Assembly: GCA_029557915.1 (NCBI GenBank)
Contig: JAKQHS010000178.1
Location: forward strand, 1-64,000
DNA length: 64,000 nucleotides
Source: Bacteroidota bacterium
GTDB lineage: Bacteria > Bacteroidota > Bacteroidia > Chitinophagales > Saprospiraceae
Direction: 5' to 3'
The notes beneath the pieces were generated by a model. That model searched no databases. It saw nothing but the letters and a program-made list of their open reading frames with translations, and was not told where the DNA came from. Numbering within the stretch: position 1 is the stretch's first letter; each line of letters starts with the position of its first letter. Shown one piece after another: positions 11,131-44,416 of the stretch. Made by a program: the position numbers and the translations under genes.

Positions 11131-14100
11131 GTGCAATGCTTTCACTCATATCCCTTTTTTAATAAAAGCTTACATAAGCTTTTAGCGCCTGGTTTGTCTG
11201 TTTTATTGATTTTCAGTTTTACCCCAATACAGGGCCAACCTAAAAACCTCATTCACGGAACAAATAAAGCGAGGGACAGCGCCCAGGTTTTCACCGGCGA
11301 TAAATACTTTGATTCCGGAGGGCCCGGTGGAAGTAAACTTACGGATCAACCCGGCAATTATTCCAACTGTTCCGATCCTTTCAATGAAAATGCCAACTGT
11401 ACTTCTTACTTTACCCTTTGTTCCAATGAGGATACGGTTTCAGTAAATTTTATTGCCTACCAGATTGTAACCGGCGACCGGCTCAGAATTTTTTCAGGTT
11501 CAAAACCTTCCGGCCCCCTGCTTTTCAACAGCTTGACCCAGGGGGTTTCCCTGAATGGAATGAAACTGACCACCGGGACTTATATCAAAAGCAAAGCCCC
11601 CGACGGCTGCCTCACCTTCGAATGGTTTTGTACCACCATTGCCAATTCCATCGGATGGGAGGCGGACATCATCGTGATTGGGAAAAACCAGCCGGAAGAC
11701 AGCCTTTGTAACCCTTCCTGTAAACCGCTTGCTTTGGTCCGGATTCCCCTCGATACCTGTTATAAATTATTAGGAGCGAATGAACTGATCCTGGATTACC
11801 ATCCCACCTGCGCCTATTCGCTTCAACTGTATTATCCTTTCGGATCAGACCAGTTGTCGCCACCTGCCGTAAATGCCACCCATCTCAACAATACCTTCTT
11901 ATATGAAATAAAATCGGGGGATGGGCCGACTTGTTTTGGTTATATTCAGGTAGAACAGGAAAGTTTGCCGGTTGAAATCTGCGGGAGGGACACGGTGGAT
12001 TGCACCTGGTGGCAGAAAAACCAGGATTTGAAACCGGAGGTCAGCACTTGTTCCGGGATCCGGTATTCCATCAGGAAAACTACGTTTATCTCTCTGGATT
12101 GTGATGATCAGTTTTCCGGAATGGTGGTCCGGGAAATCAGTTTTGGAGGAATCCCCGACTCGATTTGTATCGATACCCTCTTCTTGATCAAGCCGTTCCT
12201 GGACTCACTCGTGTGCCCATCCGATCTTAAAGTACCCTGTAACCTGGAGGGCCTGGACAAGGATCCGGCGAAACTGTCGCCAAGCCACCTCATGACCATT
12301 CTTGATATGGATGGGGACCGTCGAATGGATGCGGATCCTGCCCGCCTGCTCATCCCTGAATGGAAAGGCAACGGAGCCCTCGATACTTCCGGTGCTTGCG
12401 GCATGGTCGTCTCCTGGAACGATTTTCTGATTCCGGGATGCGGCAATAGTTTTAAGATACGAAGGCAGTGGACGATTGGTTATAAATGCGGCGGCAGGGA
12501 TACGGTCTGCATTCAAAACATAAGTATAGTGGACGAAAGCCCTCCCGAACTGGCTGCGGTCACTTCCATGGAGTTTGTGGCAGATCCTTCAGCCTGCAAA
12601 GCCTCTGTGATGCTGGATTCGGTGCCGGGAATAGAAGACTGTAACAAAGTGCAGCAGCGTTTGGAAATCACGTATCCAGACCCGGTAAATCCGGGCAAGC
12701 AAATTCTTATCTCGGGCGCCCTGCCCATCAAATTATCGTTGGCTCCGGGAGGATATAAAGCTAAGTTCATTTTTTCTGATCCTTGTTTCAACGCAGTACG
12801 GCAGGAAGTTTGTATCCAGGTGGCCGATTACCAGGGGCCGGTATTAAAATTAAAACAACAGGACTTTTTTCTCGAACCGCAGATGTGCTGGAGAAGGGTT
12901 TATGCCGGGGATCTGGACAGTTCCAGCGCAGACCTTTGCTGCGCCAAGCTGCATTTTGCCATTGCCTATGAGGATACACTTTCCCATTACCGGGAGCAAT
13001 GGCTGGATTGGATCGCGGGAAATTGCCAGGGAACGGATGGGTATCCGGCGCATAAGGATTTTTACGACCGGTTGATCGACCAATGGCTCACCGCATTTGT
13101 ATTTGATGACTACCTGGACCTGGCCGCCTGTGAATCCCGGCAGGTGGTGGTCCGGGCCTATGAAGCCTGCAGGATTCCTGTTCCGGATCCCTCTTTTAAA
13201 GGCAGCGGCCATCAATGGTTTTGTTATATGACCATTCCCGAATTCCGCGGATGGATGAATGGGGGCGGCCGGATTGGTCAATATGATTTGATGTGCCATT
13301 CGGCCTGGACGGCTGGTGAAGACTTGTCTTTCAAATATCCTTCCCTGGAAGCCCTAAACGATTCCATTTCCTGCAGCGCCTTGTACGACCGGGAAAACCT
13401 CAACCGCATCCTTTTGCAATATGATGAAAAAACCGTACCTCTCCGGATCAGGGATACCTCAAGCCCTGAAATAGGCAGCCTTCCGGACCTGGTGGTCTAT
13501 GTTGACGGTATGCCGGATGCGAATATCACCTGCACCGGCGAGACATACCAAGCAGGAAGCTGGCCCGGAGCCATTACCTGTAATTGTGACACGGGCCATT
13601 TCGAAACCTTTTATGGAGGCCCGCTCCGAAACGACGCGGTCTATGATGAACAGGGTCAATACCACTATCCCGCATGTCAGCCCTACGATCCATCGATCAA
13701 ACCCAGACCTATTTATTGCAGTTCCTTGTTGAAGGCAGAATATACGGTTCCCGGATCCCTGGTTCCGGATTCCCTGTTTTACCAACCCGTTTTCGGCACC
13801 GTGGCCCAGGGAAGACAATTTCACATCACAGGGACTTGTACGGAGGGTTATACGGTTTCATACCAGGATGTCCCCACTCTCGACCCCTGCGGAGCCGGAA
13901 CCATTATCAGGGAATGGACCATCACCAATGCCTGCGGCCAGACCTTTATGGCCAGTCAAGTCCTTAAAATTCAAGCCAGATCTGATTTTGAAGTCCTTTT
14001 TCCTGCGGATACCATCCTGGATTGTACGGATTTGCAGTCCCTGGAACCGCTGACTTTGTCTCAGCCGCTGATTAAGGATGCGGAGGCAGAATCTTTGGAC

Positions 14101-24298: not shown

Positions 24299-25219
24299 AT
24301 GAAAAAAATTTTATTCCTCGCAGTATGCTTTTGGTCGGCCAATCTCGGTTTGAAGGCGCAGGAAGAGGCTATTTATTCCCAGTATTTATTTCATCCTATC
24401 CTCGTCAATCCTGCTTATGCCGGATTTCTGCCTGACCATGAGTTGTTGTTCAATTTCAGAAATACACATGCCGGTTTCCCGGGTTCTCCCCAAACCTATA
24501 CCCTGGCATTTAATGGCCCGATAGCGCCTAAACTCGGTTTTGTAGGACTTTTAAACAACGATAAGGCTGGCGATCTGAACCGGTTCCGGGGCCAGGCCGG
24601 CCTGGCCTATATGTTTAAAATGGGTACGGTCAAGATGAATGCAGGGCTGGCGGCACAGTATCAGAAATTTCAACTGGCCAACGGCGCCATCCTGGATTCA
24701 GGCATCGATCCCTCCGACCCTCTGATCCGCGCCGCCGCCGACGGGCTTAATTTTTTCAATACCTCCATCGGGGTTTACGGAGAAAACGACGGGAAACTCT
24801 TTTTTGGCTTATCGGTCGTAGACCTGGTCAGGACGAGGATTGATGACATTCAATCCCCCACAGATGAAAGTTCCTTCTTTAAATATTATAATGCCTGGGT
24901 GGGCTACCGCTGGAATATCGCCAATTATAACTTCACCGTTGAACCTTCCGTGATGATCAAGCGGCTGAGAAATGTGCCCTTTCAAACCGATTTTAATGTT
25001 CGGTTGTCATTCCTGGATGATCAACTGTTCGGTGGATTGACTTATACTGCAGGCGGTTTCAGTAAAACGTCTTTCCTGCTCGGAACCAGGATCAATACCT
25101 TCCGCTTGTACTATTCTTATGATGTGGCCCTGGAGGATTTCCAGAAATACAACAACGGTTCTCATGAACTTTCCCTTTCATTCAGGATACCTTCGGTAGT
25201 GGGAAAGAACAACCAATAA
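24299..25219 (+). CDS. PorP/SprF family type IX secretion outer-membrane protein
   Basis: This 306 aa protein has a signal peptide (1-20, ending LGLKAQ) and the family opening EEAIYSQYLFHPILVNPAYAG, followed by beta-barrel strands ending in FRIPSVVGKNNQ. The length fits PorP/SprF proteins (about 300-330 aa). Members sit in the outer membrane and are needed for secretion or anchoring of a particular type B-sorted partner, usually encoded next door, as SprF for SprB. Here the neighbour 40 nt upstream is the two-cohesin type B protein, so the pair should work as cargo and anchor. A terminator follows at 25242. Confidence 0.92.
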   Translation: MKKILFLAVCFWSANLGLKAQEEAIYSQYLFHPILVNPAYAGFLPDHELLFNFRNTHAGFPGSPQTYTLAFNGPIAPKLGFVGLLNNDKAGDLNRFRGQAGLAYMFKMGTVKMNAGLAAQYQKFQLANGAILDSGIDPSDPLIRAAADGLNFFNTSIGVYGENDGKLFFGLSVVDLVRTRIDDIQSPTDESSFFKYYNAWVGYRWNIANYNFTVEPSVMIKRLRNVPFQTDFNVRLSFLDDQLFGGLTYTAGGFSKTSFLLGTRINTFRLYYSYDVALEDFQKYNNGSHELSLSFRIPSVVGKNNQ

Positions 25220-31100: not shown

Positions 31101-31774
31101 AGGCGACCCCTGCACTGGCCTTCCATGCCATTGACCAAACTTATTCCTCCGGGGATCTCGTAAGGCTTGAATTCTTTGGCGCTGAACAAACCTCGATCAA
31201 CGGGTTTCAATTGAGCCTGCATGCCGCGGACCTTGATTTGCTTTCCGTCGAACCGGGTTTGATTCCGGCAGGTCCTGAGTATGTGCACCTGGAAGGGCAT
31301 ACCCTTAAAATGTCCTATCATCAAAGCAATGCCCTTCGTCCGACCGTCGGGATGCCGCTGTTTACCCTGGTGTTCCGGGCCAGGAATGACGGTAGACTCA
31401 GCCGCGCCGTCAACCTCGGTTCAGAGCCCTGGCTGCATGCGGAAGTCTATGATGGTGCCCTGAAAGCCTCACCGTTAAAGCTGGATTGGAAGGGAAAGGC
31501 AAATCAGTCCTTCAATATGCAACTTGGCCAGAATCGACCCAATCCATTTTTTGAGTCGACGGTCATTGAATACCAACTGCCTGAGTCTTCCCCGGTCACC
31601 CTGAAAGTCATGGATCTCCGTGGCAGGACCCTTCTCCTCAGACAGGAATCCGGTACGCGCGGACACAATTCCATTACCCTCAGCCGAAAGGACCTCGGGA
31701 CCGGTGGAATGTATTATTACACGGTTGAATCGGTTTACGGGACCCTTACCCGAAAAATGATCCTGGCCGATTGA
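28178..31774 (+). CDS. Giant secreted HYR-like protein with dockerin and cohesin-like modules, T9SS type A
   Basis: The ATG at 28178 gives 1198 aa and starts just before a good signal peptide (MNPIMNLGKGIFLVLALL, cleavage near HSQ); ATG at 28190 is an alternative. The protein has cysteine-rich HYR-like repeats, including canonical 'GNSSTDTTVVSVID' and 'GNTCSDTTVVIVRD' ends, and a block IAWPKDTTFFVCSANTSP shared in style with the two genes downstream. The 'VPGSAVDNC...FTCDSLG' module precedes a regulatory-like beta module, the dockerin pair (NGVSTLD at 852; DIDKNGEINGID at 882) and the WRFIDAGYRF linker ending DFIGVKIGDIN. A cohesin-like module (about 975-1097, NGFQLSLHAADLDL...LKMSYHQS) and a type A sorting domain (1108-1198) follow. 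No catalytic motif is seen. The next gene starts 33 nt later without a terminator. Confidence 0.9.
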   Translation: MNPIMNLGKGIFLVLALLTLPLNTIHSQCFLENGTYYTAPCDTNLADFLHPDTSDIGNCPNIVSVEANLPFQTIMNGCDSACFSLLIRQWRVNFSSGPDTLLVDTICFTPISLAEVFCPRDTVIYCNGGLADTSVAALGSPLHNNGIPCNILVNGPTQILWSSTSLGCLKFTRQWLVMDWCTLEIDTCRQTIEVRDTTDPSISVIPLLQDFSTSGDACTGSVIFPVATVSDNCAAPGQISVKIEVAGQTLNSNGGIVHNVPQGTHQAVYIATDGCGNSSTDTTVVSVIDKVGPIAICKSAKSIQLSQTGILVMPATAFDNGSFDLCDPEITVKVKRIPSSSFCAMPYNQVHKFDDMVKFCCMDANKDIMVIVRVYQGFIPAGPISIDAFSNPYTECMVMVRVLDKVGPVISCPADTTIDCRDIHKKRVRSLTDYGTPVVSDLCLDTVWIDSLPQLGVCNTGVIIRRINARDDAGNVSTCSQKIFVINTDPFDGKDTADIAWPKDTTFFVCSANTSPANTGFPVIKDASCSQIVFGSQDEVFQYVPNACRKILRRWTATDWCQLSPTDSKAGKWYYTQKIIVMDTLKPMITVPDTVTVNSMDSICGAVQVSVPLPSATDCTDSASLIWSFITDINGDGIHDGQGYGKDASQTLPVGKHKIIFSVNDHCGNTCSDTTVVIVRDAKAPTPLVMHGLATDLSLMNGVVMARVPASLFFVPGSAVDNCTPSDKLIFSFSPDTSDRFRIFTCDSLGMRTVYLYVTDEAGNQGEVISYILIQDNFGSCPGAASGIKTTGVGGKIQTEWGSHVEQVDIKLMHGQTVMQGVNMNQGQYKANGLQIGQSYEIIPKKNVNPYNGVSTLDLILIQKHILGLQPIRSPYKQIAADIDKNGEINGIDLVELRKLILGIDKAFTKNEAWRFIDAGYRFQEKADPLKQPFREQYLIRDLQSPMQVDFIGVKIGDINESSIPSELLNLESREATPALAFHAIDQTYSSGDLVRLEFFGAEQTSINGFQLSLHAADLDLLSVEPGLIPAGPEYVHLEGHTLKMSYHQSNALRPTVGMPLFTLVFRARNDGRLSRAVNLGSEPWLHAEVYDGALKASPLKLDWKGKANQSFNMQLGQNRPNPFFESTVIEYQLPESSPVTLKVMDLRGRTLLLRQESGTRGHNSITLSRKDLGTGGMYYYTVESVYGTLTRKMILAD

Positions 31775-31807: not shown

Positions 31808-34800
31808 ATGAAAATAATTAAGGCTAACCTTCCCATCCCAAAAACGAAAGTTAGTTTAATCCAGATCCGCAGGGTGCTGTCCCTGCTCCTCTTCCTGTCT
31901 CCTTTGCTGGTAAGAAGCATGGTCCTTCATCAGGGCAATACGGACCATTCCAACTATTACACCCAAAGCCCCTGGCAACCGGTCTATCTCTTGGAAGCCT
32001 CCATGGCGGGTATGACTTGTTACACGCAGTTGAACCTTTCCCTGGGGGCCGGAGGTAAGGCCAAAATCCTTCCTTCCATGATCCTGAAGCCCGGTCCGAT
32101 CAATGACGCGGATTTCATGGTAAGAATATACGGCACGAGCACAGATACCCTCAGTTGCCTGCACAAGGGACAGAAAGTAAAAGTGGAAGTCACTGAAATC
32201 GCCACCGGCAACAAATGCTGGACTTTCATTTTGGTCGAGGATAAAATGGCGCCCTCCATTCAATGCAGGGATACTTCCTTTCTTTGTGTCGGCGACCTTT
32301 CCTACCTGGATAGCATTCCCGGACTGTACGAGGTGGGGGATAATTGCACGCCGCTGCAGAAACTTAAAATCACCCATATCGATAAGGTCGAGATGCTGGA
32401 ATGCAGCAGCGATACTTTTTCCGTGGTCCGAAGGACCTGGACCGTCGTGGATCCCTACGGGTGGTCCGGGAGCTGCACGCACAATATTGCATTGTTGCGG
32501 CCTCAGAAATCCGATATTGATTTTCCGCAGGATACTACCCTTTATTGTCCCGACACCGATGCCAGTCCTTCCAATACCGGCCAGCCCACCATCGGGGGCC
32601 AGCCGCTGGATAAGTTTTGCGGCTGGAGTTTCAGGTATGACGATGTGGTCTTCAATAAATGCGGTCAGACCAAAAAGATCTGGAGGACCTGGTCGGTGCT
32701 CGATTGTTGCGCCTTGGAGGATACCACGGTGACCCAATGGATCCTGATCTCCGATACCACCGACCCTGTCATCCAATGCGCCCCGGTCGACAGTGTATCC
32801 ACCCTTGCTGAATCCTGTGAAGCCAAGTATATCATTCCGGAGATCCTTTCCGCTACCGACAGTTGCCATTCTTCCCTCACCACCATTGTATGGGTGGACA
32901 GTCAGTTTATTGCGGTTCCGGGTTCGATGGTCCTCCTTGAAATCGGGACGCATAGCCTGGAATACCAGGTGTCCGATCCCTGCGGCAATACCTATTCATG
33001 CATGACCTCCATCGTCGTGGAAGACACCCATGCTCCGGTCTTTTGGTGCACCGACACCATTCAAATCGGCCTGCCGGCTGACCGGGTCATGATCGGGGCG
33101 TCCTTTTCGGAAATCGAAGCGGTGGATAATTGCAGCCTGGTTGGGGTCCAGATCCGCCGTAAGACGGATTTTTGCATGGATGGTTCCGACGATACGGTTT
33201 TTGGCGACAGCGTCGCCATCTGCTGCAGTGATGTAAATAACCCGTTCGATATTGTATTTATCGCCACCGACATTTATGGCAACGTGGATTCTTGCGTGGT
33301 CACCGCGGTGGTGGTGGACAAAAGTCCGCCTGTCCTGACCTGCGAACAGGATACCACGATACTTTGCGGAGAAATCGTCCCGGACTGGAAAGATCCCCTG
33401 GCAGGCTTGACGGACAATTGCATGGACAGTATCGCGATCACTATTGATACCCTGATCAACGATGTCAACCTATGCGGTGTCGGACAGACCGTCAGGCAGA
33501 TTATAGCTACTGATCTGGCCGGTAACAGGGATACCTGCATTCAACGCATTGCAGTCAGTGCAGGGGATACCCTGACCCCGGATGATATCGATCTGGGTAC
33601 GGATACCGTAAGGGTGATGGGATGCAATCTGGCGCTTCTGCTCCCGGACAGCATCGGATACGTACCACCGGTCGTGGATACTCCGTTGAATGACTGCCAC
33701 CGGATTTTCATAACCTACATCGATTCGGTTCAGCCGTTGGGCGGTACCAGCCTTTGCCGGATCACCCACCGTTCCTGGCGTGTGGGCGATTCCTGTTACA
33801 GTGTTTTTCCCGTCGAGGTTTTGGTCCAGGTCATCCTGCAGGACACCACCGCCCCTGCTCCCCTGCGGGGCGGGATTACCGGGAGGGTGACCAATATAGC
33901 AGCCATTCCAATAGAAAAAGTCCATATCGAAGGGAAAAATATGCAGGCCCAGCCCGTATTTGAACAAATGACCGGAGTGGATGGCCAATTTTCATCGGGC
34001 CGGCCCGATCCTGCGCTAAAAATCAGGCTGGAGAAAGAGGATCCTGCTGCATTGAATGGAATCAGCACCCTGGACCTGATTAAAATCCAGAAACATATCC
34101 TGGGCGAACGAAAGCTTGAGCATCCCTTGCTGGAATACGCAGCCGATGTTGACCGGAACGGACAGGTCAACGTACTTGACCTGCTCACCCTCCGAAAAAC
34201 TATAATAGGCCTCTCCAATCCGGATTTACCTTGGCATTTTGTGATCCAATCCGCTCCGAGCGCAAGGATACAACCTGGTTCCTGGCTGCCGGAAGAGTAC
34301 ATGTTATTCAGTAAACCTTCGGTCGAGGAATTTATTGGTTTCAAAACAGGAGATGTGAACATGGATGCAGTGGTCAACCATACATACCAGTTGGAAGGCC
34401 GCTCGGCTGCCGTCACCGAACTTATTCTTGAAGACAGTGAGGAAGGGCTTTTAATTAAAGCAGCCAAAGATATGCGGATGCTGGGAATGCAACTGAGCCT
34501 GGTTTCTGAAGACGGTTGGGCCGGGACCCATCTGGTTTCAGGAATCAACAAACCGCTTGAAGGACATTGGTCGGTCATAAGGAATGAGTTGAAGATCAGT
34601 TGGAATGAAAACCAGGCGAGGGTGTTGAAAGCAGGTACAGTATTGTTCATTATAAGAGGGGCCCATTCCAAAAACGTCTTCTCCGGTACTTTGCCTTCAG
34701 AGTGGTATGATCATCAGGAAAAAGCCCTGCCGGTTCGTTTGGTGAAATCCGATAAAAAAACGGATCCGGTCAGGATTTCCGCCTTTCCCAACCCGGTCAG

Positions 34801-35011
34801 CCAACAATTGAATATCCGCTTCCCCGGACAGGGGCCCATCCAATCCTGGAGATTGGTGAACCAGACCGGAAGGATATCCTTAGAGGGCAAATCACCAGGC
34901 CATAATGAATGGTCAATAAACATGCAGATCCTGCCTTCCGGGCTTTATTGGCTCGAACTCATTCTGTCAAATGGCCAAATTGAAAGACATAAAGTATTGA
35001 AGATTAATTAA
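31808..35011 (+). CDS. Giant secreted HYR-like protein with dockerin module, T9SS type A
   Basis: This is a 1067 aa protein. The signal segment is unusually placed, with a hydrophobic stretch at about 23-36 (VLSLLLFLSPLLV) after a basic N-terminus. Cysteine-rich HYR-like repeats follow (FPQDTTLYCPDTDASPSNTG; GNTYSCMTSIVVEDTHAP; GNRDTCIQRIAV). It lacks the 'DLDAGSFDNC' module that its paralogues have before the regulatory-like module (about 693-745). The dockerin pair is NGISTLD (750) and DVDRNGQVNVLD (780). The linker ends EFIGFKTGDVN, then a weak cohesin-like module (about 866-978) and a type A sorting domain (989-1067, ISAFPNPVSQQLNIRF, ending HKVLKIN). It is probably cotranscribed with the gene at 28178 (33 nt gap). 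Confidence 0.88.
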   Translation: MKIIKANLPIPKTKVSLIQIRRVLSLLLFLSPLLVRSMVLHQGNTDHSNYYTQSPWQPVYLLEASMAGMTCYTQLNLSLGAGGKAKILPSMILKPGPINDADFMVRIYGTSTDTLSCLHKGQKVKVEVTEIATGNKCWTFILVEDKMAPSIQCRDTSFLCVGDLSYLDSIPGLYEVGDNCTPLQKLKITHIDKVEMLECSSDTFSVVRRTWTVVDPYGWSGSCTHNIALLRPQKSDIDFPQDTTLYCPDTDASPSNTGQPTIGGQPLDKFCGWSFRYDDVVFNKCGQTKKIWRTWSVLDCCALEDTTVTQWILISDTTDPVIQCAPVDSVSTLAESCEAKYIIPEILSATDSCHSSLTTIVWVDSQFIAVPGSMVLLEIGTHSLEYQVSDPCGNTYSCMTSIVVEDTHAPVFWCTDTIQIGLPADRVMIGASFSEIEAVDNCSLVGVQIRRKTDFCMDGSDDTVFGDSVAICCSDVNNPFDIVFIATDIYGNVDSCVVTAVVVDKSPPVLTCEQDTTILCGEIVPDWKDPLAGLTDNCMDSIAITIDTLINDVNLCGVGQTVRQIIATDLAGNRDTCIQRIAVSAGDTLTPDDIDLGTDTVRVMGCNLALLLPDSIGYVPPVVDTPLNDCHRIFITYIDSVQPLGGTSLCRITHRSWRVGDSCYSVFPVEVLVQVILQDTTAPAPLRGGITGRVTNIAAIPIEKVHIEGKNMQAQPVFEQMTGVDGQFSSGRPDPALKIRLEKEDPAALNGISTLDLIKIQKHILGERKLEHPLLEYAADVDRNGQVNVLDLLTLRKTIIGLSNPDLPWHFVIQSAPSARIQPGSWLPEEYMLFSKPSVEEFIGFKTGDVNMDAVVNHTYQLEGRSAAVTELILEDSEEGLLIKAAKDMRMLGMQLSLVSEDGWAGTHLVSGINKPLEGHWSVIRNELKISWNENQARVLKAGTVLFIIRGAHSKNVFSGTLPSEWYDHQEKALPVRLVKSDKKTDPVRISAFPNPVSQQLNIRFPGQGPIQSWRLVNQTGRISLEGKSPGHNEWSINMQILPSGLYWLELILSNGQIERHKVLKIN

Positions 35012-35098: not shown

Positions 35099-35120
35099 TT
35101 TTGACCAAAAATTCAAAACA

Positions 35121-38100
35121 ATGAAAACTACATCCTTCTTGTTTAGGCGGTCTGCATGGGTATTTGCCTTGTTGGTTCAGCTGGCAGTGGATAGCGCTTT
35201 TTCAAATACCCTGTTTGCTCCGGCGAGATACCATTATTACCAGATAAATCCATTTGAGGCCTCTGAGGCCCTGGGGGGCAATTGTCATAAGGACAAGCAG
35301 CCTCCAGTGGCTCAATTGAAAATGCTTGGCGAGACGGAATGTACATCCCTTCAGGGGGCGCCCTGGTCCGATTTCCTGATCCTTTCTGATAACTGCATTC
35401 CGAATGAGCAATTATATGTAACCTATAAGGATTCCACCTATCTGAATTGTGAGGAACAGGTGATCCTCGTATTCAGGAAGTGGAAAATCAAAGACCTGGC
35501 GGGCAACACAACCGTAATTGACCAGATGATCCCGGTCCAGAAAATTCCGCTGAAACAAATCGAACTCCCTTTGGACGTCAAGGTGTATTGCCCGGAGCTG
35601 CCCGATGCAGCAGCGCTTGGGGAGGCTGTACCCACCTATAAGGGAAAGCCCGTGTCCCATTTTTGCGGGTATACCGTGGATTACAAAGACAAAGCTGCCG
35701 TACTATGCGGCAATTCCACAGTGATTACCAGGCATTGGACGATCACCGATTGCTGCAACTCCTATGCCATCGATCATGAGCAGCAGATTTATTACCTGGA
35801 TACTACCCGGCCGGTCCTTACCTGTCCGGCCCCTATGGTGTTTAAAACGAATGTAAAGGAATGTTATTCCCATCAGCGCATTCCCGGTATCGCCGCCACC
35901 GACGGTTGTTCCCCGTTGGGTATTAAAATTCAAGTCGTAGTCGATAATGGGAAAACGTACAAGGTAGGTGACCTGGTCATCCTGTCGGCAGGCAATCATA
36001 CTTTCGAATACAAGGTGACGGATGCCTGTGGCAACATGTCCACGTGCACGGTCCCGGTCACCGTCGTCGACGGCCAGGGGCCATTGCTGAGTTGCAAGGC
36101 CATTGAAGTCTGCCTGATCACTGATTCCATACGGGTGGGTCCGGAGCAACTGGTTGATGAATATTGGGACGATTGCCAGGGATTGAAGAAGGTATCCCTT
36201 AAAATCAGAAAATTTGTTGATCTATGCGGGGATCCCAAGGACGACCTGGTTTTTAAAGATTCCGTGACCATTTGTTGTGCAGGTGGGGAAGATGTAGTCC
36301 GTGTGGAAATTCAAGCTACCGATGCCGCAGGCAATGTTTCCTATTGCAGGTCGGACATCTATGTTACGAGTAAACTGAATGTTGACATTGAATGCCTGGA
36401 TACGGTCGAAGTAGATTGCGGGGAACCGCTTCCCGAAATCATACCGGAAGTCATTGCCTGCGGGGATTACGACCTGGACACCAAAATTATTTTTGACAAC
36501 CGCGACGCCTTCGGCATTGGTACGGTGATCATCCGGTATATAGTGACCACGGCGGGCGGAATGCAAGATTCCTGTCAAACCGTATTTGAAGTGGGTCTGG
36601 AAGGAAATCCGTTCGGACCCGAAGACGTGATTTGCCCACCCGGAACCGTCACCATTGCAGGTTGCACTTTCCCTGACATCGCGGGTATACCCGGGATCAG
36701 TCTGACGGACACCGCCCGGCCCTGCAGCCAGGTGAATGTCAATCTCCAACTGGATACGTTTACAGACCTGGGAATACCCTGTTTGCGGATTACCCGGACC
36801 TGGACGGTGACCGATGTATTGCAACCCGGCCTCCAGGTGATCTGTGTGCAAAACATTGATATCATCGACACCATCGCTCCGGTACTGAGCGGGGCCAGGG
36901 ACACCACGGTGGTCGCCGGACTCAACTGTACGGCCATCGTTGACCTGCCTGAAGTCATCGCCACGGATTGCGATACCGGTATCGTCGTGACGAATACCTT
37001 CAATGCACAGGGGGGCAACCTGGATTCTATTGTTTTCCCGCTTGGACAGACCAGGATCACGTTCTGGGGGGTCGATGCCTGCGGCAACAGGGATTCCTTA
37101 AGCATACTCATTACCGTGATAGATACTTCCGGTTTCGGAATTGTTTGCCAGAACGACACCATTGTAAACTGCGGTACGGTTTTCGTTCCCAGACCTGCCG
37201 TGATCGAGGCTTCCTGCACACAGGTGGCCACCAATGTATTGACTTCAGACACGGTGAGCAACAAATGCGACATCACTCATATCCACTTCAAAAGAGTGGT
37301 TACGGATACCCTGGGCAGGAAGGATTCCTGCACCTTTACCGTCACTTTCCGTGCATCGGATACCCTTTTCTGCAACCAGATCCAATGGCCTAAAGACACC
37401 TTGCTGGCCAGCTGCGGGAAGAGCATACATCCGGACAGTCTGAATTTGAAGCCCATATTTACATTTAATGCCGGTTCCTGCGCCCGTGTTGTAGTTACCT
37501 ATAAAGACACCAGCCTCGCCGGTGGAGGAGGGACCTGCACCAACATTACACGTAGGATATGGACCGTAAGCGATACCTGTGCCATCCCTCCCGTCGTCTG
37601 CCGCGATACCCAGCTGATTTCCGTCGTGGACACCTCCAGGCCCATCCTCCAGGTGCCCAAGGACACCTGCGTATTTCTTGCTTTCCCGGCCCTTTGCGAT
37701 ACCTTGCTCGGTTTCCTGGGAAATGCCACCGCGCAGGATTGTGATCCCGCCGTGATCATAAAATCCGTGGTCATCGGCACTACGGACACCGGAGGGGCTT
37801 CCTTGGTCAGAAGATATGGACTCGGTGATACCCGGGTGCTGGTCATTGCCCAGGACGCCTGTGGCAACCGGGCCCTGGATACCGTGTTGATACAGGTAAA
37901 GGATACGGTCAGGCCCGATGCCGTTTGTGTCAAGTCCAATAATTATTTCAATGACCAGGGACTGGTGAGGGTCAATGCCAGGACCTTCAATGGAGGAAGC
38001 ACCGACAATTGTACTCCTCCGGCTATGTTGCGATTTTCCTGGACTAAAAACCTGGCGGATACGATCCTCGAGGTTAACTGTGATGTGATCAAAATCATCA

Positions 38101-39497
38101 GGGCCTCCGGGGATACCATTCTCGATTCAGTGATCGTCATGCCCTTTGAACGGAATTTTAATCTCTGGGTCACGGATGCCAGCGGCAATCAGGATACCTG
38201 TGTGGGCAACCGTTTTCTTGCCTTCTTTGATACCCTGAACCTATGCGGAAAGAATGCCATCAAAAACCTTTCTTCCATCACCGGGAAAATTTCCATGGAA
38301 AACGGACTGGCCGTTCCCAAGGTCATTCTCTCAGCCATCGGGGATGAGCAATATCAACATCTTTCCGATGAACAGGGGACCTATATGTTTGATAAGATCA
38401 ATCCCGGCATATATAAGATGTTTCCGTATAAAAACGACGATACCCGGTCCGGAATCAGCACGGCAGACCTGATCGCCATCCAAAGACATATTCTCGGCGA
38501 AAAAATACTCAATCCGACCCAGCAGATCGCGGCGGATATCAATAAGGATGAGGTCGTCACCACCCTGGATTTGATTGAATTGCGCAAAGTGATTGTCGGG
38601 ATCTATGAGGTGTTCCCGCAAAATACTTCCTGGCGCTTCTTTGACCAGTCTCTGATGGAAAAAATGGACGATCATTCCGTTATGAAGGAGATGGAAAATC
38701 CATTCGTGGAAGCCGCGGAGAAAGAAACCAGCCAGCTGAATTTCATGGCTGTAAAAATCGGAGATGTAAACGGGAGCACCGTTCCACAGTTTGCAGCCCT
38801 TGAAAGCCGGGAACAATCAACCAGATGGCTGAATATCCCCGCCTGGAACCTGAACGAAGGGGAACAGGTCGAATTGCCCTTATCCCTGAATCTTGATGAT
38901 CTGGTCGCCCTCCAGGCCAGTATTTTCTTTGAGGACCTGGATATCCTGGGTATCAAGGAGGAGCCGGGAGCGTTGATCAAACCCCACTTCGTGGCCACCA
39001 ATCAGCTGGGAAAAGGGTATTTTAATTTCAGTTGGATTAAATCCGGACCCGCTTTCCCGGCGCAAGCTACTCACCTCGTAAGCCTGGTTCTCCGGGCAAG
39101 GCGTGACCTGGCTTTATCCGAAAAGGTCACCCTGGTACACAAATCCCTGGCTCCTGAAGCCTATCACCAGGGAGGATCCGTCTCCGCTCTTCAATTGCGA
39201 TTTGAACCCATGCAGACCGGTAAAATCCTGGACCGGGGCATTGTACTCAATCAAAATATTCCCAACCCTTTTACGGGAAGTACCCGGATCCGCTTCTCGC
39301 TGCCGGAAGCCGGGGAAACCAAGTGGACCTTTATGGACATTACCGGCCGCGTGATCCGGAGCTGGAGTCTGCCTTTCGACCGGGGCAGCCATGAAATGGT
39401 CGTGGACAAAGCAGGATTGGGAACGTCCGGCGTCCTTTATTACAGGCTGGATTTCAAGGGATACACAGAGACCCGGAAGATGATCCTTCTGGATTAA
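35121..39497 (+). CDS. Giant secreted HYR-like protein with dockerin and cohesin-like modules, T9SS type A
   Basis: This is a 1458 aa protein with a signal peptide (1-28, ending DSAFS). It has at least six cysteine-rich HYR-like repeats (for example CGNMSTCTVPVTVVDGQGP, CGNRDSLSILITVIDTS, CGNRALDTVLIQVKDT). A 'NARTFNGGSTDNC...NCDV' version of the pre-dockerin module follows, then a regulatory-like module, and a dockerin pair with SGISTAD at 1110 and DINKDEVVTTLD at 1139 (the loop Gly is Glu here, which may weaken calcium binding). The linker WRFFDQSL ends in NFMAVKIGDVN; next come a cohesin-like module (about 1234-1363, LQASIFFEDLDIL...YFNFSWIKS) and a type A sorting domain (1368-1458, IPNPFTGSTRIRFSLP, ending RKMILLD). 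No enzyme motif is visible. A terminator follows. Confidence 0.9.
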   Translation: MKTTSFLFRRSAWVFALLVQLAVDSAFSNTLFAPARYHYYQINPFEASEALGGNCHKDKQPPVAQLKMLGETECTSLQGAPWSDFLILSDNCIPNEQLYVTYKDSTYLNCEEQVILVFRKWKIKDLAGNTTVIDQMIPVQKIPLKQIELPLDVKVYCPELPDAAALGEAVPTYKGKPVSHFCGYTVDYKDKAAVLCGNSTVITRHWTITDCCNSYAIDHEQQIYYLDTTRPVLTCPAPMVFKTNVKECYSHQRIPGIAATDGCSPLGIKIQVVVDNGKTYKVGDLVILSAGNHTFEYKVTDACGNMSTCTVPVTVVDGQGPLLSCKAIEVCLITDSIRVGPEQLVDEYWDDCQGLKKVSLKIRKFVDLCGDPKDDLVFKDSVTICCAGGEDVVRVEIQATDAAGNVSYCRSDIYVTSKLNVDIECLDTVEVDCGEPLPEIIPEVIACGDYDLDTKIIFDNRDAFGIGTVIIRYIVTTAGGMQDSCQTVFEVGLEGNPFGPEDVICPPGTVTIAGCTFPDIAGIPGISLTDTARPCSQVNVNLQLDTFTDLGIPCLRITRTWTVTDVLQPGLQVICVQNIDIIDTIAPVLSGARDTTVVAGLNCTAIVDLPEVIATDCDTGIVVTNTFNAQGGNLDSIVFPLGQTRITFWGVDACGNRDSLSILITVIDTSGFGIVCQNDTIVNCGTVFVPRPAVIEASCTQVATNVLTSDTVSNKCDITHIHFKRVVTDTLGRKDSCTFTVTFRASDTLFCNQIQWPKDTLLASCGKSIHPDSLNLKPIFTFNAGSCARVVVTYKDTSLAGGGGTCTNITRRIWTVSDTCAIPPVVCRDTQLISVVDTSRPILQVPKDTCVFLAFPALCDTLLGFLGNATAQDCDPAVIIKSVVIGTTDTGGASLVRRYGLGDTRVLVIAQDACGNRALDTVLIQVKDTVRPDAVCVKSNNYFNDQGLVRVNARTFNGGSTDNCTPPAMLRFSWTKNLADTILEVNCDVIKIIRASGDTILDSVIVMPFERNFNLWVTDASGNQDTCVGNRFLAFFDTLNLCGKNAIKNLSSITGKISMENGLAVPKVILSAIGDEQYQHLSDEQGTYMFDKINPGIYKMFPYKNDDTRSGISTADLIAIQRHILGEKILNPTQQIAADINKDEVVTTLDLIELRKVIVGIYEVFPQNTSWRFFDQSLMEKMDDHSVMKEMENPFVEAAEKETSQLNFMAVKIGDVNGSTVPQFAALESREQSTRWLNIPAWNLNEGEQVELPLSLNLDDLVALQASIFFEDLDILGIKEEPGALIKPHFVATNQLGKGYFNFSWIKSGPAFPAQATHLVSLVLRARRDLALSEKVTLVHKSLAPEAYHQGGSVSALQLRFEPMQTGKILDRGIVLNQNIPNPFTGSTRIRFSLPEAGETKWTFMDITGRVIRSWSLPFDRGSHEMVVDKAGLGTSGVLYYRLDFKGYTETRKMILLD

Positions 39498-39523
39498 TTT
39501 GCACAGATTTCATTGTTTTATAC

Positions 39524-39733: not shown

Positions 39734-39946
39734 TGACATATTATTATATTATGTAATATGATAATACATGTAAGTCAGAGAATGAATAAAAATTAGATAT
39801 AATTTGATCATAATATCTAATAGTGCTATCAACCTTCTTTCCAGGTGGACCACACCCGGACTAACCTTTCTGAGATTGGATAATTGATTGTGTGCGCCTA
39901 TGCTAGCGAGATTCCCCATTGATTGCCGGTATAGCGCTCCCACAGT

Positions 39947-39968
39947 TTGGGCTGCGAAAGCAACCCAA
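39947..39968 (+). promoter_or_regulatory. GNRA-capped hairpin in the leader of the 1470 aa gene
   Basis: TTGGGCTGC-GAAA-GCAACCCAA (39947-39968) pairs over nine positions with one C-A mismatch and has a GAAA tetraloop. It is 35 nt before the ATG and has no T run, so it is more likely an RNA-stability or translation element than a terminator. Confidence 0.4.
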
Positions 39969-40003
39969 CCCCGATTATTTAATTTAACTAAAACTAAGAT
40001 CTC

Positions 40004-43000
40004 ATGGAGAAAACTACACGAAACAGAACAAGCCTAAAGGCTAGACCGGGATTATTCCAGGCCCTAATGCTCATTTTTCTTTTTGGTTGGTCGGCCAGTC
40101 AACAGTCGGCCATTGCCCAGGGTTGCGCCCTGACCTGCCATAATATTAACCTCTCCTTGGATACCGTGCAGGGAGGGGTTTCCGTAATCCTTCCGGAGCA
40201 TTTGCTTTCCGGTGAGGCTTCCTGCCCAGGGGGAGGATTCAAGGTGACGGTTTATGCACCGAACGGCGCCCTCATTGGCAACTCGGTTGATTGCAGTTGG
40301 GTGGGCTATTCCCTGATCGGTAAAGTGACGGATACTATCAGCGGCAACAGTTGTTGGGCGAAGATCAATGTGGAGGACAAAGCAGGTCCAAACCTGAATT
40401 GTGTCAGGGACACCATTCACTGCCTCGAAGTGGATGAATATTCCCTCGGGGCGGACCGGTTCCCTTTTGGCCTTGCTATTGACAATTGCGGGATTAAATC
40501 ACAGGTTTCCATTTCCATGGTATGCACCGAATATCCCTGTTCCAATACACAATTTGTAGGCCTGTGCATAAGGACGGTCATTGCCACCGACAAGTGGGGA
40601 CTGACCAGCAGCTGCCAGGACAGCCTCTGGGTATCCAGGGATTCCCTGGACAATTTAATGGGGGTCCGTGACACGGTGCTGGACTGCGCCATCGCGGACA
40701 CCATGGCCAAAGATGCCAATGGCAACCCGATCCCTCAAAGGGTGGGTACCCCTACCATCTCGGGCATCCCCGTATGGCCCAATAACAACGTTTGTAAGAT
40801 CCTGAGTAAATATACCGACGTGGTCTATCCGATTTGCGGAAGTAAAAGCAGAAAAATCCGGCGGGAATGGACCATCGTGGATTGGTGTGCCGGCGAGGAT
40901 ACGGTATTGATCCAATGGATTAAAATTGTGGACACCACAAAACCGGTCCTGGTCGACCGGGGTGAAATGTCCGCTTATGTAGGACCTCACAATTGCCAGG
41001 CTCCCGTGGACCTTACAAGTCCCGGAGCCACAGATTGCTCCGGCATCAAAGAAGTTTTTTACTCCGCGGTGGTCCTTTCAGACGGACACGGAGGATTGGG
41101 AGCGGTTTACACCGGATATATCAACGGGGGCAGCAAACGTATCTACCTCCCCTCCGGCAGGCATGAAGTACACTTTTTCGTCACCGATCATTGCGGCAAT
41201 ACGGCCCTGGATACCCTGATCATAAACGTCACGGATCATGTCCCCCCGACCCCGGTCTGTGACGAACACACCGCCACTACCCTGGATCCGGTAAGTTGCT
41301 GGGCGAGGATCTATGCATCCGACCTGGACAACGGCAGCCGGGATAACTGTTGCGGTACCCTCTACTTCGCAGTGGCCCATATGGATTCCATCACTGCTTA
41401 TACCGAACTCCTCCGCGGTAAAATCATCTCCAAATACAAAGAATCGGTTTACCACAGCAACCGGGACTTCTTTGAACAGGTGATTGACCGGTGGATCAAT
41501 TGCCATGTCTTTGAAGAATATATCGATCTCGGTTATTGCGGGGTTAACCAACTCGTGCTGAGGGTATACGAAGCCTGCCTCATACCCAAGTACGATCCGC
41601 ATGTGCATTCCGATTCAAGGCAGTCGTTTTACTGCAAGGAAGCCTACAATGGACATGATGGGGCCTACAATCAGGCCCAGGATAATGTGGACGCCCTGAT
41701 CGACTATGTCCTGAAAGGCATTGGAATGAAAGTCCAGCCGAATTTCCCGCTGGGATATCGAAATTACAGCGACTGCATGATATTTGTAAACGTAGCCGAT
41801 AAGGTGGCTCCGACCTGCGAAGTGGATGCTGAAAAAAAGGTCTACTGCGACGGGGTTCCTTATGTGGAACTGGCCTGGAATTACGGCGGTGGTAAAGATT
41901 TGCTGAACTGCTACGGCGCAAATGGAATCTACAGTCCCGATTACCTTGAACTGGATCAATACGACAACGGAGGGAAAATCAATCCTTACGAATACTTTGA
42001 TAATCCGGTTTTTGAAGACAATTGTGGAACGGTCAAGGTGGATACCACCACCACCGGCTCTATAAACAATTGCGGAGCCGGTGTCCTGACCCGTTCCTGG
42101 ACCGGTACGGATGAATGCGGCCTGCTGTCCACCACCTGCGCACAAAAACTAAAAGTATTGCACCGCTCGGATTTTGAAGTACTGTTTCCAAAGGATATAG
42201 AAACCGTCTGCCTCGACAACCCGGCCCAGTTTAATAATCCCACCGGTGAAAATTATCCGAAAATTTTCGACGATGATTGCGAACACATCGGCATTACCTT
42301 CTCGGACCAGCGGTTTGACATCGTAGCCGATGCCTGCTACAAAATCATCCGCACCTGGAAGGTGATCGACTGGTGTGCCTACGATCCGGACCAGCATTAC
42401 CGCACAAAGGATTATATCGTGGATACGGCCACCGAATACCGGGCCGTCCCGGATAAATACCAGGACCGTTTCTGTCAGTTCAGGTACCTTAAAGACAATA
42501 ACGACGGTTATATCCTGTATACCCAGATCATAAAAGTCAAAAACACCGTAGCCCCGACCATCGCCGTGGAGGACAGCGTCGTCACCTGCGCCGGCAGCGT
42601 CGAAACCTGCCTGGGCCATATCAAACTTAAAGTAAACACTACGGATGATTGTACCCCCGGTCCTGAAATGAGGTGGGTGGTCTATATTGACCGTGGGAAT
42701 GACGGATCCACAGAACAGACCTCTTATCACAGCGGTTCCACGGTCACGGTGGACTCGGATTTCGAGGTAGGACAGCATAAAATTTCTTTCCTGGTCGAGG
42801 ACATCTGTGGCAATGAAACCAGAAAAGACTTTGTGATCGATGTGGAATTGTGCAAACTTCCCACTCCGTACCTGCTCAACGGGCTTGCAGTGGACCTGAT
42901 GCCGATCGACAACAATAATGATGGTAATACGGAATCCGGAATGGTAAGGATCTGGGCCAGTGATTTTGATGCCGGAAGCACAGCCGGCTGCGGGCAGCAG

Positions 43001-44416
43001 GTGGTCGCTTTCTCCTTCTCCAGCGATACCTCTGACAAATCCAGGACCTATACCTGTGACAGCATAGGCCAAAGGTTTGTGAACATATGGGTTACGGACA
43101 GTTACGGAAACCAGGATTTCGCCTCAACCTATATCCTGATCCAGAACAATGCCAATGCCTGCGCCCCGGGTACCCAGGCCATCACCGGCACGATCACAGG
43201 CCGGATCAAAACCGAGGATCAGCTCGATGTTGAAAAAGTGAGTGTTCAATTGCAGGGCGCCAACAGCCTGCCTGCGGTGACCAAGGCGGATGGCTTGTAT
43301 GCCTTCAGCAGCATGAAGATGGGAGGATCCTATAAAGTGATGCCCAAAAAGGACATCAATCCGATGAACGGAGTCTCCACCCTGGACTTGTTGTTGATTC
43401 AAAAACACATCCTGGGCCTGCAGCCGCTGAACTCTCCCTATAAACTGATCGCAGCTGACATCAATAAATCGAACGAGATCAGCTCTGTGGACCTGGTGGA
43501 ATTGCGCAAACTGATCCTGGGCATCTACGACAAATTCCAGGGTAATGAATCCTGGAGGTTTATTCCCAAGTCACACACATTCAAGAACCCGGCCAATCCG
43601 TTTGAAAGCGGGTTTCCTGAATACCAGGATATTTCGAGCCTGGGCCATAATTCTTTTGCCGATTTCGTCGGAGTGAAAGTGGGCGATATCAATGGCACTG
43701 TAGTCGCCAACCAGTTGTTGGGAAGCGAATCCCGTGCTCCCGGAAAAGAATTCCTTCTCCGGGCCGATGACCTCTCTTTTAATGAAAGAGAGCAAATCCT
43801 GGTGCCGGTGTATGCTGCCGATTTACAACTGATTCAGGGCTACCAGTTTACTTTGAGTTTCGATCCAAAAGTCCTGAAGTTAAGCCAGGTCATTCCCGGC
43901 GCAAAGGGCATGAGCCAGGTCAATTTCGGATTGCAGCGGGCAGTTGAAGGCCGGATTACCACCAGTTGGACGACCACGCGCGCTTTGGAATCGATGGATC
44001 AACCCTTGTTTACCCTGGCTTTCAATACGCTCCGGAAGGGCAGGCTCCATGATCAGCTGTACATCAATTCGAGCGTAACGGTAGCAGAAGCTTACGACAG
44101 CCAGCACGATATCCTGAACGTCCGGCTGCAGGTGGGTTCCAAAGATGGAAAGGGTGAATTTGCCCTTCTCCAAAATACCCCGAACCCATTCCTGCATTCC
44201 ACCCGGATCGGATATCAAATGCCTGAAAGCGGGCAGGGGCTGATGAAAATTTTTGACCTGAATGGCAGGCTCGTGAAGGAGATCAACTTGAAATACCAGA
44301 AGGGATACAATGAAATCCGCATGAGCCGCAACGAACTGAAATCATCCGGGGTCCTGTATTATCAATTGCAGGCCGGGAACTTCACCGCAACGAAAAAAAT
44401 GGTGGTCATAGAGTAA
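40004..44416 (+). CDS. Giant secreted HYR-like protein with dockerin and cohesin-like modules, T9SS type A
   Basis: This is a 1470 aa protein with a long signal peptide (1-39, ending SAIAQ). It is a close paralogue of the gene at 16260 but lacks the N-terminal CUB-like module. Shared blocks include CDEHTATTLDPVSCWARIYA...YDPHVH (about 422-540) and HRSDFEVLFPKDIE (about 720). The 'IWASDFDAGS...TCDSIG' module and a regulatory-like module (about 1060-1118) precede the dockerin pair (NGVSTLD at 1122; DINKSNEISSVD at 1152). The linker WRFIPKSHTF ends DFVGVKVGDIN. A well-formed cohesin-like module follows (about 1247-1375, GYQFTLSFDPKVLKLSQV...ITTSWTTT), then a type A sorting domain (1385-1470, ending TKKMVVIE). 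No enzyme motif is visible. It has its own promoter and terminator. Confidence 0.9.
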   Translation: MEKTTRNRTSLKARPGLFQALMLIFLFGWSASQQSAIAQGCALTCHNINLSLDTVQGGVSVILPEHLLSGEASCPGGGFKVTVYAPNGALIGNSVDCSWVGYSLIGKVTDTISGNSCWAKINVEDKAGPNLNCVRDTIHCLEVDEYSLGADRFPFGLAIDNCGIKSQVSISMVCTEYPCSNTQFVGLCIRTVIATDKWGLTSSCQDSLWVSRDSLDNLMGVRDTVLDCAIADTMAKDANGNPIPQRVGTPTISGIPVWPNNNVCKILSKYTDVVYPICGSKSRKIRREWTIVDWCAGEDTVLIQWIKIVDTTKPVLVDRGEMSAYVGPHNCQAPVDLTSPGATDCSGIKEVFYSAVVLSDGHGGLGAVYTGYINGGSKRIYLPSGRHEVHFFVTDHCGNTALDTLIINVTDHVPPTPVCDEHTATTLDPVSCWARIYASDLDNGSRDNCCGTLYFAVAHMDSITAYTELLRGKIISKYKESVYHSNRDFFEQVIDRWINCHVFEEYIDLGYCGVNQLVLRVYEACLIPKYDPHVHSDSRQSFYCKEAYNGHDGAYNQAQDNVDALIDYVLKGIGMKVQPNFPLGYRNYSDCMIFVNVADKVAPTCEVDAEKKVYCDGVPYVELAWNYGGGKDLLNCYGANGIYSPDYLELDQYDNGGKINPYEYFDNPVFEDNCGTVKVDTTTTGSINNCGAGVLTRSWTGTDECGLLSTTCAQKLKVLHRSDFEVLFPKDIETVCLDNPAQFNNPTGENYPKIFDDDCEHIGITFSDQRFDIVADACYKIIRTWKVIDWCAYDPDQHYRTKDYIVDTATEYRAVPDKYQDRFCQFRYLKDNNDGYILYTQIIKVKNTVAPTIAVEDSVVTCAGSVETCLGHIKLKVNTTDDCTPGPEMRWVVYIDRGNDGSTEQTSYHSGSTVTVDSDFEVGQHKISFLVEDICGNETRKDFVIDVELCKLPTPYLLNGLAVDLMPIDNNNDGNTESGMVRIWASDFDAGSTAGCGQQVVAFSFSSDTSDKSRTYTCDSIGQRFVNIWVTDSYGNQDFASTYILIQNNANACAPGTQAITGTITGRIKTEDQLDVEKVSVQLQGANSLPAVTKADGLYAFSSMKMGGSYKVMPKKDINPMNGVSTLDLLLIQKHILGLQPLNSPYKLIAADINKSNEISSVDLVELRKLILGIYDKFQGNESWRFIPKSHTFKNPANPFESGFPEYQDISSLGHNSFADFVGVKVGDINGTVVANQLLGSESRAPGKEFLLRADDLSFNEREQILVPVYAADLQLIQGYQFTLSFDPKVLKLSQVIPGAKGMSQVNFGLQRAVEGRITTSWTTTRALESMDQPLFTLAFNTLRKGRLHDQLYINSSVTVAEAYDSQHDILNVRLQVGSKDGKGEFALLQNTPNPFLHSTRIGYQMPESGQGLMKIFDLNGRLVKEINLKYQKGYNEIRMSRNELKSSGVLYYQLQAGNFTATKKMVVIE

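Follow-up and report, generated by a model that had tools for sequence, protein, structure and literature searches.

A predicted cohesin-dockerin surface assembly without recognised enzymes, exported by the type IX system in Saprospiraceae

A 33 kb gene block in a Saprospiraceae genome appears to encode a non-enzymatic cohesin-dockerin surface assembly exported through the type IX secretion system (T9SS), and corresponding genes recur across the family. This assembly is predicted from genes and modelled structures, and we favour it with a little better than even confidence. The block lies at positions 11131-44416 of the window, by which we mean the whole stretch of 64,000 nucleotides analysed (contig JAKQHS010000178.1, positions 1 to 64,000, of assembly GCA_029557915.1). 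On the + strand it contains open reading frames (ORFs) for seven giant exported proteins (d1 to d7, Table 1), a two-cohesin protein and a PorP/SprF-type gene. The source genome measures 5.04 Mb in 209 contigs, is 98.8% complete and encodes the T9SS translocon protein SprA (SprA_N 474 bits). Saprospiraceae are a widespread family of environmental bacteria. Here we describe the domains and architectures of these proteins, their co-occurrence across genomes and their frequent linkage, and weigh the ways in which they may fit together.

The two-cohesin protein carries both of its cohesins at the N-terminus. The two domains score 40.5 and 34.5 bits against PF00963, over the curated cut-off of 24.1, and the best Foldseek match of the predicted tandem is the type II cohesin dyad 3l8q (E 8.6e-14). 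A preliminary description of this DNA had called the domains cohesin-like and would have had to be abandoned if profile searches had placed them outside the cohesin family; profile scores and predicted fold both place them within it. The same description had read SprB repeats, a type B sorting domain and an adjoining SprF-type partner, all of which were found by the Pfam scan. SprB (PF13573) and CHU_C (PF13585) are over their cut-offs, TIGR04131 gives 43.1 bits for the type B domain, and the adjoining gene passes the PF11751 cut-off, so that the SprB/SprF type B features are complete in the window. Several cohesins (two here) on one secreted, non-catalytic chain are a mark of scaffoldins, whose cohesins also bind the dockerins of partner proteins; the protein is a putative scaffoldin and is called one below.

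The ORFs of the seven giants are where the preliminary description had put them. That of d4 opens at 28058, and 28178 is the better start because a signal peptide follows it. The dockerin pair of loops reported for all seven is borne out by searches with PF00404 and by a profile match to solved dockerins. In a genome search six of the seven giants exceed the PF00404 cut-off of 22.9 bits and d2 falls just under; in a whole-protein scan five exceed it, d3 falls below and d2 is not listed at E <= 0.01. A family tail profile of 59 rows picks up solved dockerins, that of Acetivibrio ScaB among them, and matches 4uyp_B over the whole chain (E 4.8e-7). The AlphaFold2 (AF2) model of the d7 tail has three dockerin helices at residues 67-77, 86-92 and 102-112. 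The conserved first loop NGVSTxD of the preliminary description is exact in four giants (genes at 11131, 16260, 28178 and 40004), and the others read NGISTLD, SGISTAD and KGVSASD. Among 220 related modules the second loop is a regular EF-hand loop, as had been described. Gly7 and Asp12 of the first loop are invariant there, and its EF-hand position 5 is Leu or Met in 171 of the 220 modules and Asp in 8. Complete calcium ligands in both loops were therefore not found, and calcium binding at the first loop is uncertain.

The tails of the giants contain a second element that the preliminary description had overlooked. Six of the seven, all but d3, have the same order of a CarboxypepD_reg-like (CarbReg-like) beta-sandwich, the dockerin, an insert, a cohesin-like domain and a type A sorting tail. 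The insert is conserved and ends in a KxGD[VI]N-like motif. The CarbReg-like domain is matched by PF13620 in 12 of 34 relatives (complete dockerin ORFs of this module type, one per locus) and is part of a rigid d7 model. The tail cohesin is present in 136 of 142 dockerin ORFs, no two of which end identically and which come from loci chosen for a tail module or a scaffoldin; two of the six exceptions (L056, L069) are cut by the contig or locus end. Among the window giants PF00963 lists the d7 tail alone (17.2 bits, below cut-off). Two other tails of the source genome exceed the cut-off, and 22 of the 34 relatives match at E <= 0.001. For d1, d5 and d6 the cohesin call comes from alignment to clearer copies alone. 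The predicted fold of the d7 tail cohesin aligns in VIA-align with Z 12.7 to 4ums and 1anu over 123-124 residues, and the 50 entries listed are all cohesins or cohesin-like modules.

The AF2 model of the d7 module (319 aa, 59 sequences) has a predicted local distance difference test score (pLDDT) of 93.2, with only residues 181-184 below 50, and a predicted template modelling score (pTM) of 0.87. That of the scaffoldin cohesin pair (22198-23043, 282 aa, 17 sequences) has pLDDT 92.0 and pTM 0.59, the latter as would be expected for two well-folded domains without a fixed arrangement. From the domain sizes we estimate that a free-floating tail cohesin would give the d7 module a pTM of about 0.56. 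Because the observed value is far above this, we infer that the tail cohesin is packed against the CarbReg-dockerin unit in a fixed position, although pTM reports only how fixed an arrangement is and says nothing on which surfaces touch.

The recognised part of the giants is dominated by HYR, HYR_4C and immunoglobulin (Ig)-like domains. No catalytic family was found in the seven giants or, at E <= 0.001, in the 34 relatives, which upholds and extends the earlier statement that the dockerin proteins have no recognisable enzyme. One P_proprotein domain and one MAM domain occur among the relatives, neither of them catalytic. The scan of relatives took one complete ORF of the same module per locus, and an enzyme bearing a different dockerin could have escaped it. 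No carbohydrate-binding module was found in the window scaffoldin by the domain scan, and the dockerin-bearing enzymes that define a cellulosome were not found among the 7 + 34 giants. Because HYR and Ig-like domains dominate and no catalytic family was found, the assembly reads, by its predicted domains, as adhesive or structural.

The distribution of both components was surveyed in 198 Saprospiraceae genomes, each at least 90% complete. The scaffoldin was sought with a tandem-cohesin profile, A4, which is the tandem alignment A3 minus one misregistered row (L077:13230-14078). A strict cut of E <= 1e-40 was set from a score gap, and matches were counted by hand from the tables. In the sample that defined the gap scaffoldins scored at least 154 bits, single-cohesin proteins at most 132 and tails at most 79; one single cohesin elsewhere came close to the cut (136 bits, E 1.8e-39). 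An earlier search of relatives with the whole scaffoldin was replaced by A4, since it was uninformative, with some match in 60 of 60 genomes, mostly to SprB repeats.

The tail module occurs in 180 of the 198 genomes and a strict tandem-cohesin match in 157. All 157 have the tail module, and the scaffoldin is found in none of the 18 genomes that lack it (Fisher 1.3e-14; rough genus-level test 1.3e-7). The co-occurrence in relatives that the preliminary description had proposed to look for thus holds across Saprospiraceae. A loose cut of E <= 1e-10, which admits tail cohesins, gives 179 of 198 genomes; 177 then have both components, 16 have neither, two have the scaffoldin only (G089, G184) and three the tail only (G023, G195, G223). 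In one genus (g7) both components are present in G130, G185 and G219 and both are missing from G007. Tail-module and tandem-cohesin proteins also occur in the cultured Lewinella cohaerens DSM 23179. Of 296 genomes drawn from the phylum, five gave scaffoldin matches, all of them Saprospiraceae, and seven the tail module, of which five were Saprospiraceae and two belonged to the same class. The tail modules outside the family (G292:C13:21344-22240 and G431:C1:111982-112935) are single in each genome, with no scaffoldin match reported there, and are possible transfers.

Linkage of scaffoldins and giants was followed in three sets of 20 scaffoldin loci. Set 1 was picked by hand after some adjacency had been seen and was not used for the linkage test. 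Set 2 went down the A4 ranking with the tail-module listing in view, and A4 itself had been built from scaffoldins in tail-module loci; L160 and L161 are on the same contigs as A4 sources, and for G144 the second-best place was used, the better one (C142) also holding a tail module. Because the selection of set 2 was biased, set 3 was drawn by working up from the lowest places listed, taking the first one in each genome not yet sampled. A giant lies in the fetched stretch in 11/20 loci of set 1, 13/20 of set 2 (11/18 without L160 and L161) and 9/20 of set 3. The score-picked sets together, again without those two loci, have a dockerin giant near the scaffoldin in 20 of 38 loci, with 5-15% per locus expected; for set 3 alone P is between 2.5e-7 and 1.6e-3. 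The preliminary description would have been contradicted by genes unlinked in relatives. They are often linked, though not always.

The scaffoldin relatives in sets 1 and 2 (40 loci) have 2-10 cohesins per ORF, followed by SprB repeats and mostly by a CHU_C tail (19/20 ORFs in set 1 and 16/21 in set 2, some being cut by contig ends). Among ORFs with more than 900 bases downstream, SprF follows directly in 17/19 (set 1) and 17/18 (set 2). In set 3 it is downstream in 11/20, upstream in 5/20 and not seen in 4/20 (L272 and L287, which end at a contig edge, L284 and L288). An upstream SprF was noted at L068 (G028:C53), L271, L275, L276, L289 and L290, and none was seen at L075 (G011:C237).

A short, conserved one-cohesin protein of about 260-330 aa, mostly with a recognised type A tail, is near the scaffoldin in 13/20 loci of set 1 and 11/20 of set 2; it was not found in the window. 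At L284 (G178:C269) the ORF 312-2924 (871 aa) has five cohesins and a type A tail, and no SprB, CHU_C or SprF was seen; it may be a scaffoldin anchored differently. At L288 (G162:C47) a cohesin/SprB ORF (8260-12243) is followed directly by an ORF of 199 aa (12293-12889) that comprises hardly more than the CarbReg-dockerin unit, and this could be a natural small pair for binding tests.

Conserved residues were compared between the two kinds of cohesin. Tail and scaffoldin cohesins differ overall and keep the same residue at 13 positions, of which seven are on strands 8-3-6-5, one on the other sheet and five in loops (p 0.026). Strands 8-3-6-5 form the dockerin-binding face of cohesins in solved complexes. 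A near-invariant Gln of strand beta-3 aligns with an Asp in 5nrk, and the type II cohesins of 3l8q also have Gln there. We take its position to be that of Asp39 in a type I cohesin whose contacts have been described. Asn37 and Asp39 of that cohesin are reported to contact the dockerin Ser/Thr motif (PMC5772552). The residue pattern fits recognition of the same dockerins by scaffoldin and tail cohesins but does not prove it.

Covariation within the module was measured on 220 unique rows, kept from 238 matches and corresponding to about 192 effective sequences. The limits of the face strands are our reading of the secondary structure of the model, slightly widened. The ten strongest dockerin-cohesin pairs average 1.04, against 0.69 (standard deviation 0.04) in 18 row-shuffled controls. 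CarbReg-cohesin (0.91) and insert-cohesin (0.92) pairs also exceed their controls (0.67), by less. Half of the top 20 dockerin-cohesin pairs (10/20, with 26% expected, p 0.02) fall on strands 8-3-6-5, and 4/20 do so for CarbReg. The p value for the dockerin is 0.02 at the top 20 and the top 40, 0.05 at 60 and 0.12 at 100. The insert block likewise has 10/20 on face positions, and shared ancestry raises covariation in all blocks. Covariation thus leans weakly to a contact between helix 3 of the dockerin and strands 8-3-6-5 of the cohesin.

In the assembly that we favour, the SprB-like type B protein with its 2-10 N-terminal cohesins would be held at the surface with its SprF partner and act as scaffoldin. 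The HYR/Ig-like giants would be exported separately by way of their type A tails and would dock onto it through the C-terminal CarbReg-dockerin unit. The tail cohesin would probably cap the dockerin of its own giant until a partner displaces the cap, and once free it may accept the dockerin of another giant. The product could be an adhesive coat, a sheath or a matrix. The preliminary description had inferred that the SprF-anchored protein displays the giants. Simple display of the giants is not supported: they carry their own sorting tails and hence need no scaffoldin for export, and six of seven have a cohesin of their own, for which AF2 predicts a rigid placement. Since they hold both dockerin and cohesin, perhaps self-capped or chained, a view of passive display is incomplete. 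A further elaboration is a polymer of self-capped, domain-swapping giants. Each would leave the T9SS with its dockerin already on its own C-terminal cohesin; a scaffoldin cohesin would free that cohesin to capture the next giant, and chains would grow outward from the anchor. We regard this as improbable, if not negligibly so. By analogy it would be the cohesin-dockerin counterpart of self-complemented fibre assembly, conserved in one family.

Several observations count against the favoured assembly. Loop 1 of the dockerin is without a usual calcium ligand at position 5. Among the window giants d3 lacks a tail cohesin, and those of d1, d5 and d6 are degenerate. No strict tandem-cohesin match was found in 23 of the 180 genomes with modules; four of the 23 belong to genus g4 and have a single module. 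Scoring covered just 11-12 candidates in each genome, with as many as 54 first-look candidates where the module is missing, so that some absences may be misses. There is no nearby giant in 18 of the 40 score-picked loci (7 + 11), eight of these 18 being whole contigs under 10 kb. Just 7 of 79 tail-module loci, which are mostly from Saprospiraceae or Bacteroidetes metagenome-assembled genomes and include Lewinella cohaerens DSM 23179, contain a scaffoldin; most giants are thus encoded at other sites in the genome. Finally, if the tail cohesin bound its own dockerin permanently, the scaffoldin would be left without a free partner. That last case is the strongest competing explanation: the dockerin would sit for good on its own cohesin, the two forming a rigid stalk ahead of the type A tail, while those of the scaffoldin would bind something else or be plain adhesin domains, and the genes would co-occur as one surface-adhesin set. 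The pTM of 0.87 for a module whose two units both have high pLDDT, compared with 0.59 for the free cohesin pair, agrees with such a stalk, as do the near-constant presence of the tail cohesin (136/142), the separation of most giants from scaffoldins, and dockerin-cohesin covariation above shuffled controls with its strongest pairs favouring strands 8-3-6-5. However, pTM is silent on touching surfaces, and the covariation comes from about 192 effective sequences, is inflated by shared ancestry, is equalled by the insert (10/20) and fades at the top 60 and 100. A permanent stalk would also leave unexplained the module in 157/157 scaffoldin genomes with no scaffoldin in 18 module-less ones, the linkage of giants to scaffoldins, and scaffoldins with up to ten cohesins. 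We therefore think it a serious contender and still rather unlikely.

The dockerin of one giant might instead bind the tail cohesin of the next, giving polymers without the scaffoldin, which would only cap or nucleate them. Dockerin and cohesin do stand on one chain, the 23 genomes with modules and no strict scaffoldin match would be accommodated, and the proposed planctosome has an 'adaptor' with dockerin, HYR and cohesin that was modelled as holding its partners by cohesin-dockerin pairing (PMC6461901). The fixed geometry predicted within the chain suggests self-binding at least at rest, however, and the tail cohesin looks degenerate in d1, d5 and d6 and is missing from d3; we give giant-to-giant chaining little credence. 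Less credible again is a complex that degrades polymers with docked enzymes in the manner of a cellulosome, the role proposed in Ca. Stygibacter and for the planctosome. A scaffoldin with many cohesins and a T9SS tail does resemble the Ca. Stygibacter proposal (PMC8542988), but no catalytic family was found in the 7 + 34 giants scanned and no carbohydrate-binding module in the window scaffoldin. Some giants score below Pfam cut-offs, as they would if the cohesin-like and EF-hand-like features were resemblances of no common origin or role. Curated cut-offs are passed elsewhere, the profile and fold matches to solved structures agree, and co-occurrence and linkage are far beyond chance, which makes such an artefact barely conceivable. 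A reading as chance motifs was ruled out by the Pfam scores, the fold and profile matches, and the seven modules present where about 0.13 would be expected in 33 kb at the density of the source genome.

Table 1. Features of the gene block at 11131-44416 and related short ORFs; scores below a cut-off are marked.
Feature	Position	Strand	Composition	Scores
d1, dockerin giant, 1661 aa	11131..16116	+	CUB-like N-terminus by eye
d1 tail module	14926-15849	+	CarbReg-like domain, dockerin 15115-15261, insert, diverged cohesin-like domain (by alignment to d2/d7 alone)	PF00404 30.7 bits
d1 type A tail	C-terminal	+		Por_Secre_tail 28.9 bits
d2, dockerin giant, 1866 aa	16260..21860	+	module 20634-21584, dockerin 20829-20975, cohesin-like domain, type A tail	PF00404 21.1 bits (below cut-off 22.9); NCBIfam type A 25.0 bits (cut-off 23); family tail profile A2 5.4e-121 (d2 itself a row of A2)
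Scaffoldin-like protein, 706 aa	22138..24258	+	cohesin 1 22204-22602, cohesin 2 22636-23037, SprB repeats, CHU_C/type B sorting domain
PorP/SprF-type T9SS partner	24299..25219	+		PF11751 157.7 bits, E 5.6e-46
d3, dockerin giant, 774 aa	25466..27790	+	module 26864-27502, dockerin 27053-27199 (most diverged), type A tail; cohesin-like domain not found after dockerin	PF00404 24.2 bits (genome search), 19.5 (whole-protein scan, below cut-off); Por_Secre_tail 27.1 bits
d4, dockerin giant	28178..31774	+	module 30545-31495, dockerin 30734-30883, cohesin-like domain, type A-like tail	PF00404 31.7 bits; Por_Secre_tail 23.4 bits (below cut-off 27)
d5, dockerin giant	31808..35011	+	module 33863-34741, dockerin 34061-34204, diverged cohesin-like domain (by alignment), type A tail	PF00404 27.1 bits; Por_Secre_tail 31.3 bits
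d6, dockerin giant	35121..39497	+	module 38268-39221, dockerin 38454-38588, diverged cohesin-like domain (by alignment), type A-like tail	PF00404 29.8 bits; Por_Secre_tail 17.1 bits (below cut-off 27)
d7, dockerin giant	40004..44416	+	module 43181-44137: CarbReg-like domain, dockerin 43349-43519, insert, cohesin-like domain ~43736-44137; then type A tail	PF00404 33.3 bits; NCBIfam type A 33.5 bits
Short one-cohesin ORFs in relatives (examples)	L061:3038-3889, L098:8101-8952, L067:522-1355

The block is bordered just upstream by a LuxR-type response regulator (10361-11011) and just downstream by RuvX and peptide deformylase (44551-45523). Dockerin genes were found on ten further contigs of the source genome (G000), two of them just below cut-off. 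Some giants there come as almost identical pairs truncated by contig boundaries (C48/C139, 1-4057; the ends of C208/C209), and C122 has, by eye, a tail closely duplicating that of d1; recent duplication or assembly breaks in repeats may lie behind this. On C52 (L022, 33000-42000) the ORF 3337-5547 (737 aa) has a different, canonical-looking dockerin and then, by eye, a cohesin-like stretch and a sorting tail, so this genome may hold dockerin-cohesin tandems of more than one kind. On C25 (L021, 26000-36000) the ORF 4447-5598 (384 aa) has a signal-like start and the same dockerin type at its end, with no cohesin and no evident T9SS tail, and is a candidate free dockerin client for the scaffoldin.

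The clostridial cellulosome (Acetivibrio ScaB and CipA, with type II cohesin and X-dockerin) likewise has a multi-cohesin scaffoldin and a beta-sandwich before the dockerin, which is CarbReg-like here. The tail profile matches the dockerin 4uyp_B and the tandem cohesins match 3l8q. Strand beta-3 resembles that of type II cohesins: those of 3l8q read FSGYQ and FSGCQ, the tails here GYQ and the scaffoldins SMQ. Unlike in the clostridial system, no enzymes or carbohydrate-binding modules were found in the proteins scanned, export is of the Gram-negative type IX, most dockerin proteins end in a cohesin of their own, and dockerin loop 1 is degenerate. SprB and SprF of Flavobacterium are a type B gliding adhesin. 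The SprB repeats, the CHU_C type B tail and the adjoining SprF-type partner are shared with it, and Flavobacterium SprB is not known to have N-terminal cohesins or dockerin partners.

The cellulosome-like complex of Ca. Stygibacter (Cloacimonadota) resembles the present system in combining a tandem-cohesin scaffoldin-like protein, attached to the surface by a conserved domain at its C-terminus, with dockerin proteins. It differs in its dockerin enzymes and in the CBM2/CBM3 of the scaffoldin, and the text available describes no SprB/SprF, dockerin-cohesin tail or family-wide survey (PMC8542988). The planctosome of Nemodlikiaceae (Planctomycetes) is also non-cellulosomal and has dockerin, HYR and cohesin in one 'adaptor' protein; its anchor has a single cohesin with a lamin tail domain, peptidases are the proposed cargo, and no T9SS, SprB or SprF is described in the portion available (PMC6461901). 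In anaerobic methanotrophic (ANME) archaea, cohesin, dockerin and HYR domains are numerous and have been proposed to serve adhesion, but the system is archaeal, and the accessible text offers domain counts and a hypothesis only (PMC5244752).

In the literature searched we found no description of a Saprospiraceae cohesin-dockerin assembly, and no account of a SprB/SprF-type scaffoldin, of a CarbReg-dockerin-cohesin tail, or of both across the family; an earlier survey of non-cellulosomal modules may list Bacteroidota cohesins or dockerins. One paper, in the part available, names Saprospiraceae and dockerin without linking them (PMC8547425), and nothing was found that joins Lewinella and cohesin. 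The component parts are of known kinds, in a combination for which no description was found. Scaffoldin and dockerin proteins are here tied to type IX export throughout a family of Bacteroidota, and the giants scanned yielded no catalytic domain. Because the cultured Lewinella cohaerens DSM 23179 has both module and tandem-cohesin proteins, the question is directly testable, and the parts could serve as new orthogonal protein connectors. Set beside its known relatives, the system looks like a cellulosome-style building kit without the enzymes.

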